Positions 522 through 4,940 of a DNA stretch of 5,123 nucleotides are shown piece after piece. The translations under genes and the position numbers were made by a program. Each line of letters opens with the position of its first letter. The first letter of the stretch is position 1. Below the pieces are notes generated by a model that was not told where the DNA came from, did not search any database, and was given only the letters and a program-made list of their open reading frames with translations. Origin of the DNA: Propionibacteriaceae bacterium (lineage in GTDB: Bacteria; Actinomycetota; Actinomycetes; Propionibacteriales; Propionibacteriaceae). Location: contig JAUMYR010000171.1 in the NCBI GenBank assembly GCA_030528545.1, positions 1-5,123 on the forward strand, written 5' to 3'.

Positions 522-553
522 AAAAGATCCAATATCGATCGATTGGATCTTTT
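522..553. promoter_or_regulatory. Perfect 12-bp inverted repeat, candidate operator of the methyltransferase gene
   Basis: The left arm AAAAGATCCAAT (522-533) and right arm ATTGGATCTTTT (542-553) are exact reverse complements separated by the 8-nt spacer ATCGATCG. Each arm holds an RGATCY-type site (AGATCC 525-530 and GGATCT 545-550), and CGATCG lies in the middle, giving three GATC in 32 bp. The repeat ends 16 nt before the methyltransferase ATG and 4 nt before a TAGGAT box, so a bound protein would block polymerase. The helix-turn-helix of the downstream methyltransferase is the obvious candidate ligand; this is inference. If transcription began upstream, it could instead act as an RNA hairpin with a short U tract. 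Confidence 0.65.
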
Positions 554-557
554 CAGC

Positions 558-563
558 TAGGAT
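558..563 (+). promoter_or_regulatory. Candidate -10 box TAGGAT for a leaderless methyltransferase transcript
   Basis: TAGGAT fits the actinobacterial TANNNT -10 pattern and ends exactly 6 nt before the ATG at 570, placing the expected transcription start at or within a base of the start codon. No convincing -35 hexamer is visible 17-18 nt upstream, where the inverted repeat lies. The same bases contain AGGA (559-562), 7 nt before the ATG, which could serve as a Shine-Dalgarno on a longer mRNA. The two readings exclude each other functionally and cannot be separated from sequence alone. Confidence 0.5.
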
Positions 564-569
564 GTTTCC

Positions 570-1421
570 ATGCCTGCAACCATCGACATGCCGCCGTCGC
601 TCGCCGAGATCCCTCCCCTCCCCGCAGTCGATGGCGGCTTCAGAACAGTGCTTGCCGATCCGCCGTGGAGGTTCACTAACCGGACCGGCAAGGTCGCCCC
701 GGAGCACCGCCGCCTCGACCGTTACGGCACCATGGACCTCGAAGAGATCAAGGCGCTCCCTGTCTGTGAGACCACCGCGAAGGATGCCCACTTGTACCTC
801 TGGGTTCCCAACGCACTGCTTCTCGAAGGCATTGAGGTACTCCAAGCATGGGGCTTCCGCTATGTGAGCAATATCATCTGGGCGAAGCGTCGGAAGGACG
901 GGGGCCCAGACGGTCGCGGTGTCGGGTTCTACTTCCGGAATGTAACGGAACCCATCCTTTTCGGAGTCAAAGGCTCCATGCGGACACTCGCCCCGGCTCG
1001 CTCCACTGTGAACATGATCGAGACCCGAAAGCGTGAGCACAGCCGGAAGCCTGATGAGCAGTACGACCTTATTGAATCCTGCTCACCCGGCCCCTACCTT
1101 GAGATGTTTGCTCGCTACAGCCGACCGGGTTGGAGCTCTTGGGGCAACGAGTCCGCTGAAGACGTGGAGCCGAAAGGTAAGACGCATCGTGGCTACGCGG
1201 GCGGCAAGATCGAGGAGTTCCCGACCCTTGAGCCCAATGAGCGGATGAGTGGCTGGCTTTCGGAGCGCGTCGCTCGCATCCTGGTTGAGGAGTACGAAGC
1301 GGGTGCTTCTGTTCAGCAGCTAGCAGATTCTTCCGGCTACTCGATCACCCGGGTGCGGGCGCTCCTTGCCAAGGGCGGCGCAGAATTCCGGAGTCGTGGC
1401 CGTCCTCGGAAAGCGTTGTAG
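570..1421 (+). CDS. MT-A70-family DNA adenine methyltransferase with C-terminal helix-turn-helix
   Basis: This 283-residue protein should transfer a methyl group from S-adenosylmethionine to adenine N6 in DNA, protecting sites cut by the neighbouring endonuclease. The catalytic DPPW motif is at residues 30-33. Further family signatures are LYLWVPN (75-81), WGFRYVSNIIWAKR (94-107), FYFRNVTEPILFG (120-132), HSRKPDEQYDLIE (157-169) and WSSWGNE (188-194). MT-A70 proteins include the MunI-type bacterial methyltransferases. After the catalytic domain, residues about 228-275 form a separate helix-turn-helix (EEYEAGASVQQLADSSGYS, then ITRVRALLAKGG), ending in a basic RSRGRPRK tail. Such a domain is not needed for catalysis and suggests sequence-specific binding, perhaps to the inverted repeat just upstream. 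ATG 570 is chosen because it follows TAGGAT/AGGA; the ATG at codon 7 is less well placed. The frame is intact and ends 14 bp before the convergent endonuclease gene. The target sequence is inferred from that partner. Confidence 0.9.
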   Translation: MPATIDMPPSLAEIPPLPAVDGGFRTVLADPPWRFTNRTGKVAPEHRRLDRYGTMDLEEIKALPVCETTAKDAHLYLWVPNALLLEGIEVLQAWGFRYVSNIIWAKRRKDGGPDGRGVGFYFRNVTEPILFGVKGSMRTLAPARSTVNMIETRKREHSRKPDEQYDLIESCSPGPYLEMFARYSRPGWSSWGNESAEDVEPKGKTHRGYAGGKIEEFPTLEPNERMSGWLSERVARILVEEYEAGASVQQLADSSGYSITRVRALLAKGGAEFRSRGRPRKAL

Positions 1422-1435
1422 ACAGTGAACGGTTA

Positions 1436-2314
1436 CTAGCTCACGTCATCTTCGTCGGGATCTTCACTAGTCGCCTCATCGAGTTCCCCAATGGGTGTTG
1501 CGGGGAACAAGCGCTCCGCGAGCCGTTCAACGTGTCCGCTCGCTGTGTGATTGTCGGCGACGCGTTGGATCTCGGCATCCAGATCAGCAGGAGCCTCGTA
1601 GCACCGCGTCGTGATAGCGATGGCGAGGATTGGACACCCTCCACCGTCGCCGCGCCTAACTCGGGTGACAAGCTTCTCAAAGTTGGAAGTGGTGGATGTC
1701 CCCAGGGGATCTGCCGGGGTCTTCTGCAGCCGCTCGTCCCACTCAGCGGAGGTGAAGGCCGCGGTGTTGAGCTGTTTCGCTCGGGCGATTGTTTCGCTCC
1801 AAAGCGTCCTCATTCCGGCTTCCCGGCGTACAATGAGGATGCCGAGGTCAAGCACACCAGCGTCGTAGAGGTTGCGAAAGTTCGAAAAGTCCCGATCCAG
1901 GTTCCCGTCCTTGGGGTTCCACTCGACGTCAAGTCCGACACGGTCCTTCACGTTGTCGATCTGGTGACCCTCATACTCGCTCTCACTCGTGCGGACGACC
2001 TTAGCTTTCTCGCCCGCTGGCCCATAAGGGTTCAGCAGAAGGTCAGTGATCAGCTTCTGCCTAAACTTGGCCTCGCGCCAGCCGGCCACCCGGAACGCCT
2101 CATCGAGTTCTGCCGAGATGAAGTGTTTGCTGCCACCACCCCGGACGATCCGTTCCACATCGAAGCGGAAACAGTCCAGCACCCTGACCATTTCTGCAAG
2201 AAGCTCAGGGTTTGATGCCCTGAACATCGCCGCGGCGTTGCGAGTCTCGATGATGTCGTAGCGCTCGACGACGGAGCGAGGCAGCTCGGTCCGCCACGAT
2301 TCGGTGAGTTCCAT
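1436..2314 (-). CDS. BglII/BstYI-family Type II restriction endonuclease
   Basis: This intact 292-residue protein resembles the BglII/BstYI family (Pfam Endonuc-BglII), homodimeric magnesium-dependent enzymes that cut GATC-centred sites: AGATCT for BglII and RGATCY for BstYI. The best signature is residues 118-163: HQIDNVKDRVGLDVEWN, then the DRDF and FRNLYDAGV segments, then LDLGILIVRR. In this family the acidic residues of the central block bind metal; Asp120 (or Asp124/Asp129) and Glu131 in the DVEWN stretch are the candidates here. The start YDIIETRNAAA and the KHFISAELDEAF segment also suit the family. The C-terminal tail is acidic (EDPDEDD). The gene converges on the methyltransferase gene with 14 bp between the stops, so its product and the methyltransferase form a Type II R-M pair on separate promoters. 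The ATG at 2314 lacks a clear Shine-Dalgarno but is preceded by TAGCCT at the leaderless spacing. The exact cut site cannot be read from the sequence. Confidence 0.85.
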   Translation of the reverse strand: MELTESWRTELPRSVVERYDIIETRNAAAMFRASNPELLAEMVRVLDCFRFDVERIVRGGGSKHFISAELDEAFRVAGWREAKFRQKLITDLLLNPYGPAGEKAKVVRTSESEYEGHQIDNVKDRVGLDVEWNPKDGNLDRDFSNFRNLYDAGVLDLGILIVRREAGMRTLWSETIARAKQLNTAAFTSAEWDERLQKTPADPLGTSTTSNFEKLVTRVRRGDGGGCPILAIAITTRCYEAPADLDAEIQRVADNHTASGHVERLAERLFPATPIGELDEATSEDPDEDDVS

Positions 2315-2320
2315 GACAAG

Positions 2321-2326
2321 AGGCTA
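2321..2326 (-). promoter_or_regulatory. Candidate -10 box TAGCCT for a leaderless endonuclease transcript
   Basis: On the minus strand TAGCCT (TANNNT type) is followed by 6 nt (CTTGTC) and then the endonuclease ATG. This is the same spacing as TAGGAT-GTTTCC-ATG at the methyltransferase gene. There is no purine-rich ribosome binding site in the gap, which favours a leaderless message. No good -35 hexamer was seen. Confidence 0.42.
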
Positions 2327-2570: not shown

Positions 2571-3386
2571 GTGCTTCACCGACTCGATCTCAAAGCTCCC
2601 TGGCGGTCGCTGGACCAGGGCTCCTGACCGGATGGCTTTCCGCTCGGCTGTCGCACGGTGATTTACGGACCCAACAGCAGCGGCAAGTCGACCCTGTGGG
2701 AGCTCCTACTCGGGCTAGCCGAGGGAGCGTCGTCGGCCGCTGTGGTGTGGGAACGTGACGACAAGCAGTGGATCGCAGTCAGCGCGGACGAGGCGAGCCC
2801 AACGCCATTGATGTCTGTGTTCGCGCGCAAGTCGGCGGAGGCCAACCTGTCAGTGTTCCTGGACGGCGCGAGCGTTTCGACCATCGCGACGCTGGGGCGT
2901 GAAGCGACTCTTCGTGAAGTAGTTGTAGTCGAACTCCTTGAGCTTGGAGAGGATTCGGTCCTGAACTTCGCGCGAGAGCTTGTCGACCTTGCCGTTCGCG
3001 ATCTTCCGCTGATTCTCCGCTTCGTTAACCTGCGCCACGCAGCGTCTTGATTTCGGCGACAAGCCGAGCCTCTTCCTCCTTGAAATCGATTGCTTCTCAA
3101 GCATCAAGGTCCAAGGCGACCTTCGTAGCTACAAGGGTGAGTTCCCTGACAGCGACGCGCACGCTGAGGCCTTGAGGCGGTTGGACGGAGGTGCGACCGA
3201 TCCCATTGCTGCGATGTTGTCGCGCCACCTGTAGGGGTTGTCGCCCAGCTGGAAGCTTTGGTGAACCTCCTCCAAGACACGCCGACCCGGGTCGTCATCG
3301 CGGCGCTGGAGGGAAACCCAATGGCTCAGACATGGGTCGAGCGGGGCCTCGAATTTCATGAGGGCCTCGATCGCTGTCTATTCTGA
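2571..3386 (+). pseudogene. AAA_13-type (RloC/PrrC-like) ATPase remnant with internal inversion
   Basis: The start (GTG 2571) reads VLHRLDLKAPWRSLDQGS and then TGA (2625-2627). The same frame resumes with the P-loop VIYGPNSSGKSTLWELL (Walker A GPNSSGKST, 2667-2693) and continues to VFARKSAEANLSVFLDG and IATLGREA. This pattern fits AAA_13 ATPases, the type found in the RloC and PrrC anticodon nucleases that back up restriction systems. Homology then switches to the minus strand for 2906-3091 (coiled-coil-like EEEARLVAEIKTLR and EVQDRILSKLKEFDYNYF) and returns to the plus strand from 3097 (FPDSDAHAEALRRLDGG). A frame change follows TAG 3232-3234, and the fragment ends with WVERGLEFHEGLDRCLF and TGA at 3384-3386, where the second cysteine of a zinc CxxC would be expected. 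A further one-base frame change sits near 3030. Nothing beyond 3386 is recognisable, so the C-terminal part, including any nuclease domain, is missing. The gene is certainly non-functional; whether the ancestor was an RloC-like nuclease or another AAA_13 ATPase is open. Confidence 0.75.
2906..3091 (-). other. 186-bp segment inverted in place inside the ATPase pseudogene
   Basis: The segment is bounded by the 5-bp inverted repeat GAAGC (2901-2905) and GCTTC (3092-3096). Reversing it joins IATLGREA directly to IDFKEEEARLVAEI at the left end and DYNYFTKSRF to SSIKVQGDLRSYKG at the right end. This gives one protein on the plus strand, interrupted only by the one-base frame change near 3030 (GGCGCA-G-GTTAAC in the restored orientation). 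As it stands, the segment appears as part of an 85-codon minus-strand frame (2850-3107). Confidence 0.7.
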
Positions 3387-3462
3387 GCCGGGGCGGTAAC
3401 GTGGGTTATCCGCAAGTTGTGGACATGTCCCGCTTATGCGGCTTGATTCTGTGGTTGATGGT
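3387..3462. other. Junction between ATPase remnant and IS3-type remnant, with two small palindromes
   Basis: Two adjacent dyads occur here: the perfect palindrome GGACATGTCC (3421-3430) and the short hairpin CCGC-TTAT-GCGG (3430-3441). They lie just beyond the 3' end of the IS3-type transposase fragment, where an element terminus would be expected, but I cannot match them to a known IS end. Confidence 0.3.
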
Positions 3463-3751: not shown

Positions 3752-4940
3752 GTGAGCCTGGTTGGTCCGGGAGGGATGTTGAGCCAGCTCACGAAGAACG
3801 TGTTTGAGAGACAGTGTTGAACACCGAGCTGACCGGGCACCTCGGTCACGACCCCGGTGGTACCCCGATCGCTGAGAGCATGCGTAACCGGACCCGGGTG
3901 AAGACCGTGCTCACCGAGACCGGCCCCGTTGAGATCGGTCTGGTCGAGGATTGAGGTGCCACCGGGGATCGTGACGGGATTGGTCGAACTAGTGATCGTC
4001 CCCAAACGCAAGCGCCGCCTGGATGGGATCGACCAGATCGTGTTGTCGCTGACGGCCCAAGGGCTGACGACCGGAGAAGAATTACCGCGCACGTCTACGA
4101 GGTCTATATGGCGAAGATCGTGCAAGGACACCATCAGCCAGATCACCGGGGAAAGTCACCAGCGAGCTGGCCGCATGGTCCTCCCGGCCGTTGGATGCGG
4201 CCTACTCCGGTGATCGTCGTCGACGCGATCGTGGTCAATACTCCGGGACGGGCAGGTCCGCAACACCCCGTATCTGCGTCGTCATCGGCGTCACGACGAA
4301 CAGGGGAACGCGACATCCTGGGCATCCTGGGTCGGTGACGGCGCGCAAGGGGGGCGAGGTTCTGGCCGGGAGGTGTTCACCGGGTCGGGAGAGCCGCGGG
4401 GTCGAGGACGTGTTCATCGGTGTCTGCGACGGGCTCAACGGGGGCTGCCGGAGGCGACCCGACACCACCTGGGAGTACCCGGTCGTGCAGCAGTGCATCG
4501 TCCACCTCATCGGCAACAGCTTCCGGTACGCCGCCAGGCCAGCACCGAGACGCGATCGTGAAATCGCTGCGCCCGGACCGACACCGCCTGGTCCGAGCAC
4601 GCAGCCAAGGAACCGGTTTGAGGAGTTCGCCACCGACCGAGCGGGGCGAGCGGTATCCGGCGATCGTGCAGCTGTGGCGCAACTCTTGGGCGCAGTATCG
4701 TGCCGTTCCTGGACTACGATGCCCGTGATCCGCCGGGTGATCTGTACGACCAACCCGACTGGTGCCGATGAACGCCCGCTACCGCAAGGGCCGTCCGAGC
4801 GCGCGGGCACTTCCCGAAGGAAGCCGCAGCGCTGAAGTGCCTGTATCTCGTGACCAGGTCGCTTGACCCCACCAGCGCAGGCCGGGCACGCTAGATCACC
4901 AGATGCAAAGCCCGCACTGAACGCGTATCCGAACCCACCT
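3752..4940 (+). pseudogene. IS256-family (mutator-type) transposase, heavily frameshifted remnant
   Basis: Pieces of an actinobacterial IS256-type transposase appear in the right order but in all three frames: SLVGPGGMLSQLTKNVFE (from 3752), TELTGHLGHDPGGTP, RVKTVLTETGPVEI, IVPKRKRRLDGIDQIVLSL, LTTGEE, SKDTIS-like CKDTISQIT (about 4115), KVTSELAAWSSRPLD, TPVIVVDAIVV, ERDILGI, RGVEDVFIGVCDGLNG, VVQQCIVHLIGNSFRYAAR, RFEEFA, GERYPAIVQLWRNSWAQ, VPFLDYD, IRRVICTTN, MNARYRK, ARGHFPKEAAALKCLYLV and TRSLDPTSAGRAR, ending near KPALNAY (about 4908-4928). Two of the DDE-type acidic positions are visible: the aspartate in VIVVDAI and the one in VCDGL. About 40 N-terminal residues are missing. I count roughly fifteen or more frame changes in 1.2 kb, plus nonsense codons at 3818 and 3952. 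The family is clear and the protein cannot be made. Confidence 0.85.

Follow-up and report, generated by a model that had tools for sequence, protein, structure and literature searches.

A pair of RGATCY sites as a putative autoregulatory operator of MT-A70 methyltransferase genes with a fused helix-turn-helix domain

The window, that is, the whole stretch of 5,123 nucleotides that was analyzed, harbors a methyltransferase gene whose product combines an MT-A70 catalytic domain with a C-terminal helix-turn-helix (HTH), a BglII-family restriction endonuclease gene that is convergent with it at a distance of 14 nt, and an inverted repeat upstream of the methyltransferase gene (Table 1). Comparison of the nuclease with PDB sequences returned no match for the single sequence and one weak match (E 0.64) when a profile was used, and in the window no RGATCY site was detected in the 200 nt that precede the nuclease domain. 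Three small open reading frames (ORFs) of the window were checked, of which two have no Pfam domain and one has a weak relaxase match. The latter kind of signal is seen at positions 26-223 on the minus strand as a weak match to the TrwC relaxase, below the Pfam cut-off, a hint that the DNA may belong to a plasmid or conjugative element. Positions 2571-3390, adjoining the nuclease gene, contain an AAA_13 gene in broken pieces, of which an intact 762-aa copy matching PADLOC PDC-S06 is found in locus L001, and positions 3800-4900 contain a decayed mutator/IS256-type transposase, with a match for one piece.

Table 1. Coordinates of the repeat, the putative promoter elements, the genes and their domains (window positions).
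Feature	Position	Strand	Description
Left arm of operator-like repeat	522..533	+	AAAAGATCCAAT
Distal RGATCY site, AGATCC	525..530		In left arm
Spacer between arms	534..541		8 nt, ATCGATCG; not conserved
Right arm of operator-like repeat	542..553	+	ATTGGATCTTTT
Proximal RGATCY site, GGATCT	545..550		7 nt before -10-like box
TAGGAT, -10-like TANNNT box	558..563	+	6 nt before methyltransferase ATG
Methyltransferase gene	570..1421	+	283 aa, MT-A70 plus HTH_58
MT-A70 catalytic domain	639..1151	+	Residues 24-194, PF05063, E=2.6e-31
C-terminal helix-turn-helix (HTH)	1239..1409	+	Residues 224-280, PF19575 (HTH_58), E=2.4e-9
BglII-family restriction endonuclease gene	1436..2314	-	292 aa, PF09195, E=4.5e-25
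TAGCCT, -10-like box	2321..2326	-	6 nt before endonuclease ATG

The structure of the methyltransferase was predicted with AlphaFold. The model used here was obtained from 89 sequences and has a pLDDT of 78.7, an earlier one from 21 close sequences having been poor (45.8). Three helices are predicted in the HTH (residues 228-243, 248-255 and 259-268), and the block means of pLDDT over the HTH region of the model (residues 221-270) range from 81 to 94. The 50 best of 712 Foldseek matches to the model are MT-A70-type methyltransferases, with METTL3 providing the best among the matches listed, and nothing informative on the HTH was found in these 50. The catalytic domain is 67% identical, across residues 21-207, to NrS3_07 of phage NrS-3 (BCD83123.1), which is M.Nph3I, a proven m6A methyltransferase converting RGATCY to RG(m6A)TCY (PMC10734518). 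Given this identity, RGATCY is the likely target of the window's enzyme, a specificity transferred by homology to a characterized relative and hence a firmer assignment than that of the first-pass annotation. M.Nph3I (locus L127) has no HTH and methylates RGATCY without it; the domain is therefore not required for target recognition there and, judged from the sequence, it is an additional part of the window's methyltransferase.

The first-pass annotation had reported a perfect inverted repeat with 12-bp arms and an 8-nt spacer located 16 nt before the methyltransferase start, and every one of these values is exact: the arms are perfect reverse complements of each other, and positions 554-569 separate the repeat from the methyltransferase ATG at position 570. 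The three GATC-containing hexamers that it had listed are also present, with AGATCC and GGATCT in the arms and CGATCG between them, at positions 536-541. Its proposal that these are likely targets of the system itself stands for the hexamers in the arms, which fit RGATCY, and not for the middle one, which does not; a role for the central CGATCG is not supported, since the other operators compared lack this hexamer between their two sites and it has no part in the comparison presented below. Among 300 dinucleotide-preserving shuffles of the window, two contained any exact pair of 12-bp arms with a spacer of at most 20 nt. The window contains six RGATCY sites in its 5,123 bases (positions 525, 545, 607, 1458, 1567 and 1707). 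The presence of two of them in the arms amounts to one coincidence, because one arm implies the other, and it is therefore the comparison across the family that carries the weight of the argument. Exact copies of the whole repeat were searched for in viral contigs and none was found, and the window has no match in Rfam.

The placement of the TAGGAT box suggests that the methyltransferase transcript is leaderless and that its predicted promoter is overlapped by the repeat. In Mycobacterium tuberculosis, a TANNNT box centered 7-12 bp upstream is found at 73% of primary start sites, and leaderless genes are many (PMC3898074); in bacteria, a TANNNT box that precedes the start codon by about 12 bp is interpreted as a mark of leaderless genes (PMC3160421). 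The corresponding arrangement, with TANNNT located 6-8 nt past the proximal RGATCY site and the start codon a further 4-8 nt on, was observed in 14 of 33 HTH-bearing (HTH+) loci, versus 1.71 loci expected from mononucleotide shuffles. A scan of the window with the sigma-70 consensus yielded no site. If a promoter spacer of 17 nt is assumed, the segment between the arms would hold part of the -35 region. The predicted methyltransferase promoter hence includes the presumed target of the enzyme that it serves, in the form of two RGATCY sites upstream of the -10-like box.

The family comparison draws on homologous loci in genomes, in viral contigs, in plasmids and in a single phage. Loci were sorted into HTH+ and HTH-less (HTH-) using alignment-built profiles, and RGATCY sites were counted upstream of the MT-A70 core. 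An initial count over 200 nt identified at least two RGATCY sites in 32 of 33 HTH+ and 2 of 73 HTH- loci. Because the sites of locus L007 lie just beyond 200 nt, the rule was widened for all rows, a post hoc change made after L007, and a pair was defined as two RGATCY sites 11-25 nt apart within the 300 nt upstream of the MT-A70 core. With this rule, the pair was present in all 32 HTH+ loci of the first set, including the window, and in none of its 70 HTH- loci, against a background of 4 occurrences in 1,847 other 300-nt intervals of the same loci. The rule was kept unchanged for 13 loci found later, among which the pair was identified in 6 of 6 HTH+ and 4 of 7 HTH- loci, bringing the two sets together to 38/38 HTH+ (window included) versus 4/77 HTH-, counts that are not independent because the loci are related and some are near-identical (L106/L107, L009/L010). 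As the Fisher test on the first set takes no account of this relatedness, more weight is given here to the pattern than to its value. Fourteen loci identical to others were counted once, and many of the HTH- rows come from a capped sample, the top 80 among 386 relatives in the viral collection. The 300-nt count leaves out L108 and L063, with less than 300 nt upstream (L108 does have the pair), L021 and L080, in which the C-terminus is cut by the locus end, and L028, L036, L040, L052, L069, L072 and L088, with too short an upstream region. One stop codon lies inside the match in L098, L109, L132, L134 and L139. In L019, HTH coding sequence is found downstream of the MT-A70 core in a frame other than that of the methyltransferase; this locus, which has no RGATCY pair upstream, was scored as HTH-. 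The presence of the pair tracks that of the HTH in Coriobacteriia, in Actinomycetes and on plasmids of Roseobacteraceae.

When all hexamers were compared, with no prior choice of RGATCY, AGATCT ranked first in enrichment in the upstream regions of 39 HTH+ genes (34/39, versus 0.56 expected), and hexamers that overlap it, such as TAGATC and AAGATC, came next. The GATC tetramers upstream of HTH+ genes occur in 81 RGATCY, 13 YGATCR and 14 other contexts, as compared with 125, 366 and 595, respectively, elsewhere in the same loci. The 64 half-sites of the first set comprise 48 AGATCT, 13 AGATCC and 3 GGATCT, with no instance of GGATCC, versus 31 GGATCC among the 107 RGATCY sites elsewhere in these loci. 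M.Nph3I is reported to have a strong preference for GGATCC (PMC10734518), and the relevance of this preference to the operators analyzed here is speculation; if it were shared, the operators would consist of slowly methylated sites and would constitute a late-filling gauge.

The orientation of the half-sites was assessed with a position matrix for which seven loci from the group that includes the window served as training set; its consensus is AAAAAGATCTAATA. Loci with a spacing of 16-20 nt are converging according to this matrix in 12 of 13 cases, seven of the 13 being the training set and five of the other six converging. Loci in the 22-24 nt class are all direct (7/7), and the 12-14 nt class is mixed, with nine direct, three diverging and one reversed direct arrangement and margins that are often small. 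Since the orientation may be converging, direct or diverging, the conserved feature is the pair of target sites and not the dyad. The first-pass annotation had asked whether the repeat and its GATC sites recur upstream of homologous genes, and the answer is split: the RGATCY pair recurs in every HTH+ locus counted, and the dyad gives way to direct repeats in the 22-24 nt class.

A PF09195-like ORF was identified in the fetched locus for 23 of the 33 HTH+ loci, and may be downstream, upstream, convergent or divergent with respect to the methyltransferase gene. Eight of these 23 nuclease genes are divergent, with the pair in the shared upstream region; the other 15 do not share the methyltransferase upstream region and present no pair (0/15) and one single site (1/15) in the 200 nt before the nuclease domain. 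In four plasmid loci (L118-L121) a McrB-like AAA_5 gene takes the place of the BglII-type nuclease as neighbor, and two of the four were confirmed to have a McrC-like PF10117 gene next to it. The pair is present in L118, L119 and L120, and the upstream region of L121 is identical to that of L111, where the pair is found. The lack of a pair before separate nuclease genes, taken together with its presence at McrB loci, indicates that the operator is associated with the methyltransferase rather than with the nuclease. HTH-bearing MT-A70 genes accompanied by McrB-like genes (L118-L121, L130 and L131) are located on plasmids of Mycobacteroides, Arthrobacter, Kocuria and Herbiconiux, where McrBC-type restriction is possibly coupled to adenine methylation.

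A set of HTH- loci (L138-L144), for which mostly no nuclease gene was found in the locus, forms a series that runs from an intact pair to a single site and to none. L138, L139 and L141 keep an operator-like pair, 19 nt apart, and count against a strict coupling of HTH and pair. The pair of L142 is remote, has GGATCC as one of its sites and appears to be due to chance; L143 has one proximal site left, and L140 and L144 have none. Two trees were inferred, both with many forks lacking resolution. L138 and L139 group with the HTH+ loci L133 and L136 (98/85); L141 groups with the HTH- locus L143 (99/91), and both do so weakly with the HTH+ loci L016 and L137; L020 and L129 are nested among HTH+ loci (98/93) in one tree, the fork being unsettled in the other. 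Part of the linker that precedes the HTH seems to be kept in L138. Based on the grouping of L138 and L139 and on this linker remnant, the simplest reading for these two loci would be a recent loss of the HTH with slow decay of the operator, the alternative for HTH-less pairs being control by methylation without an HTH.

Type II systems must produce their methyltransferase early and later keep its level down, because an excess can protect foreign DNA as well. The initial view of the repeat as an operator-like element carrying likely targets of the system itself has held up, in that the element lies over the predicted promoter and is tied to the fused HTH throughout the family. We consider it probable that the repeat is an autoregulatory operator, at which the methyltransferase represses its own gene by means of the HTH bound to its own target sites. 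The operator would cover the -35 region of the predicted leaderless promoter, just upstream of its -10 box; the two AAGATCYAA half-sites would be occupied by two methyltransferase molecules via their C-terminal HTH, the bound HTH domains would exclude RNA polymerase, and methyltransferase output would drop as the protein builds up. Because the half-sites are presumed substrates of the enzyme, methylation may act on the same switch. Each half-site is an RGATCY sequence and most likely a methylation target, which would be unmethylated after entry into a new cell and methylated later, and its methylation state would raise or lower repression; we give an effect in one direction or the other about an even chance. 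It is conceivable, if somewhat doubtful, that writing and reading of the mark are united in one protein, with the methyltransferase modifying RGATCY genome-wide and the HTH sensing the methylation of the two promoter RGATCY sites and thus both the amount of the enzyme and the completeness of methylation.

Regulation might instead proceed through promoter methylation alone, with m6A changing the binding of RNA polymerase and the HTH, which could have a role in target search rather than in repression, contributing only to that search or to DNA affinity. The location of the sites inside the predicted promoter, the three HTH- loci that keep the pair and the description of this mode for CfrBI, AhdI and LlaDII (PMC12707154) are all in line with this explanation. 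It is nonetheless unlikely, as the pair is missing from all 70 HTH- homologs of the first set, and the A/T-rich flanks and the spacing-orientation classes of the sites point to protein binding. The sites could also serve another DNA-binding protein, encoded by the host or by the mobile element, with the HTH of the methyltransferase unrelated to them, and the persistence of the pair in L138, L139 and L141 would be compatible with it; that the pair follows the HTH across the three taxonomic groups named above, and at nuclease-linked and McrB-linked loci alike, makes this explanation a poor candidate, below promoter methylation alone.

A coding origin of the arms was suggested by protein databases, where 23 of the 120 homologs listed (8,000 scored) have a long N-terminus and 17 of these 23 by eye, or 13 by regular expression, display RS(N/S/C/D)...LDLF, so that the arms could be translated as an N-terminal methyltransferase extension, KRSNxxxLDLF. 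The corresponding frame is closed in the window by the TAG at 558-560, the interval separating the proximal site and the ATG in L105, L014 and L003 differs from that of the window modulo 3, and other loci have other spacings and orientations, leaving very little room for this possibility. The extension is best read as the operator plus the -10 box included in the gene by gene callers. Database methyltransferases of about 310 aa (P0001, P0002, P0014 and others) have N-termini that resemble the operator and the -10 box in translation, and these entries probably start too early; as far as protein sequences can tell, the RS...LDLF extensions suggest that this operator is shared by the closest relatives in metagenomes. 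Least credible of all is an RNA hairpin, terminator or attenuator. In its favor, the window's repeat folds as RNA at -15.7 kcal/mol (z -4.5); against it, the repeat is upstream of the predicted start site, the homologous sites spaced 22-24 nt apart form direct repeats, and the predicted energies across 33 operators spread from -3.8 to -15.7 kcal/mol.

The proposed autorepression by a fused HTH at presumed methylation sites can be compared with several known systems, as they are portrayed in the sources cited. The fused repressors EcoRII, SsoII and Ecl18kI are set apart from the promoter methylation of CfrBI, AhdI and LlaDII (PMC12707154), and both are named as modes of control (PMC3874152); in the fused type, which is typical of cytosine-5 enzymes, the regulatory site differs from the methylation site (PMC3695355). 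Like EcoRII, SsoII and Ecl18kI, the window presents a methyltransferase-HTH fusion and a putative operator in its own, here predicted, promoter. Its HTH is C-terminal, unlike that of the three fused repressors, which is N-terminal (PMC12707154), and it differs from the cytosine-5 enzymes Ecl18kI and SsoII in belonging to the MT-A70 family and in having an operator built of presumed methylation sites, RGATCY being the target by homology. As in CfrBI, AhdI and LlaDII, presumed methylation sites of the enzyme itself are located in the methyltransferase promoter region (PMC12707154); unlike in these systems, for which the section on them in the same source describes no fused HTH, there are here two sites, spacing classes, conserved flanks and a fused HTH. 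The family resembles the fused-repressor and the promoter-methylation modes and corresponds to the full definition of neither. HTH-based control of R-M genes, putative in the window, is also the mode of C-protein systems (PMC12707154); no separate C gene was recognized beside the window's genes among the three small ORFs checked.

A BglII-family nuclease, as in the window, and RGATCY m6A methylation, which is presumed there, are found in Nph3I of phage NrS-3 (PMC10734518) and in Acinetobacter A118 (PMC10287943). The window's methyltransferase differs from M.Nph3I in bearing an HTH, and from A118, where the HTH repressor is the product of a separate gene (PMC10287943), in having it fused. Loss of this separate repressor in A118 raises the methyltransferase transcript about 50-fold, new GATC-core modifications appear and non-self plasmid DNA transforms the cells (PMC10287943); by analogy, the A118 protein may do through a separate gene the same job as the fused HTH. 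Among the open-licence papers listed, none had a title or abstract start that concerned an MT-A70 methyltransferase fused to an HTH and governed by an operator made of its target sites.

The finding also points to start codons that are probably misassigned in database entries for homologs. The putative single-protein control occurs on contigs of genomes and of the viral collection as well as on plasmids, and its nuclease partners are of both the BglII and the McrB type. The family also offers a natural series for the evolution of control, from loci in which the HTH is present to loci in which it is lost and the operator is intact, half or missing. The reviews cited describe either a fused repressor or promoter methylation, and in the HTH+ family a single pair of sites seems to serve both.
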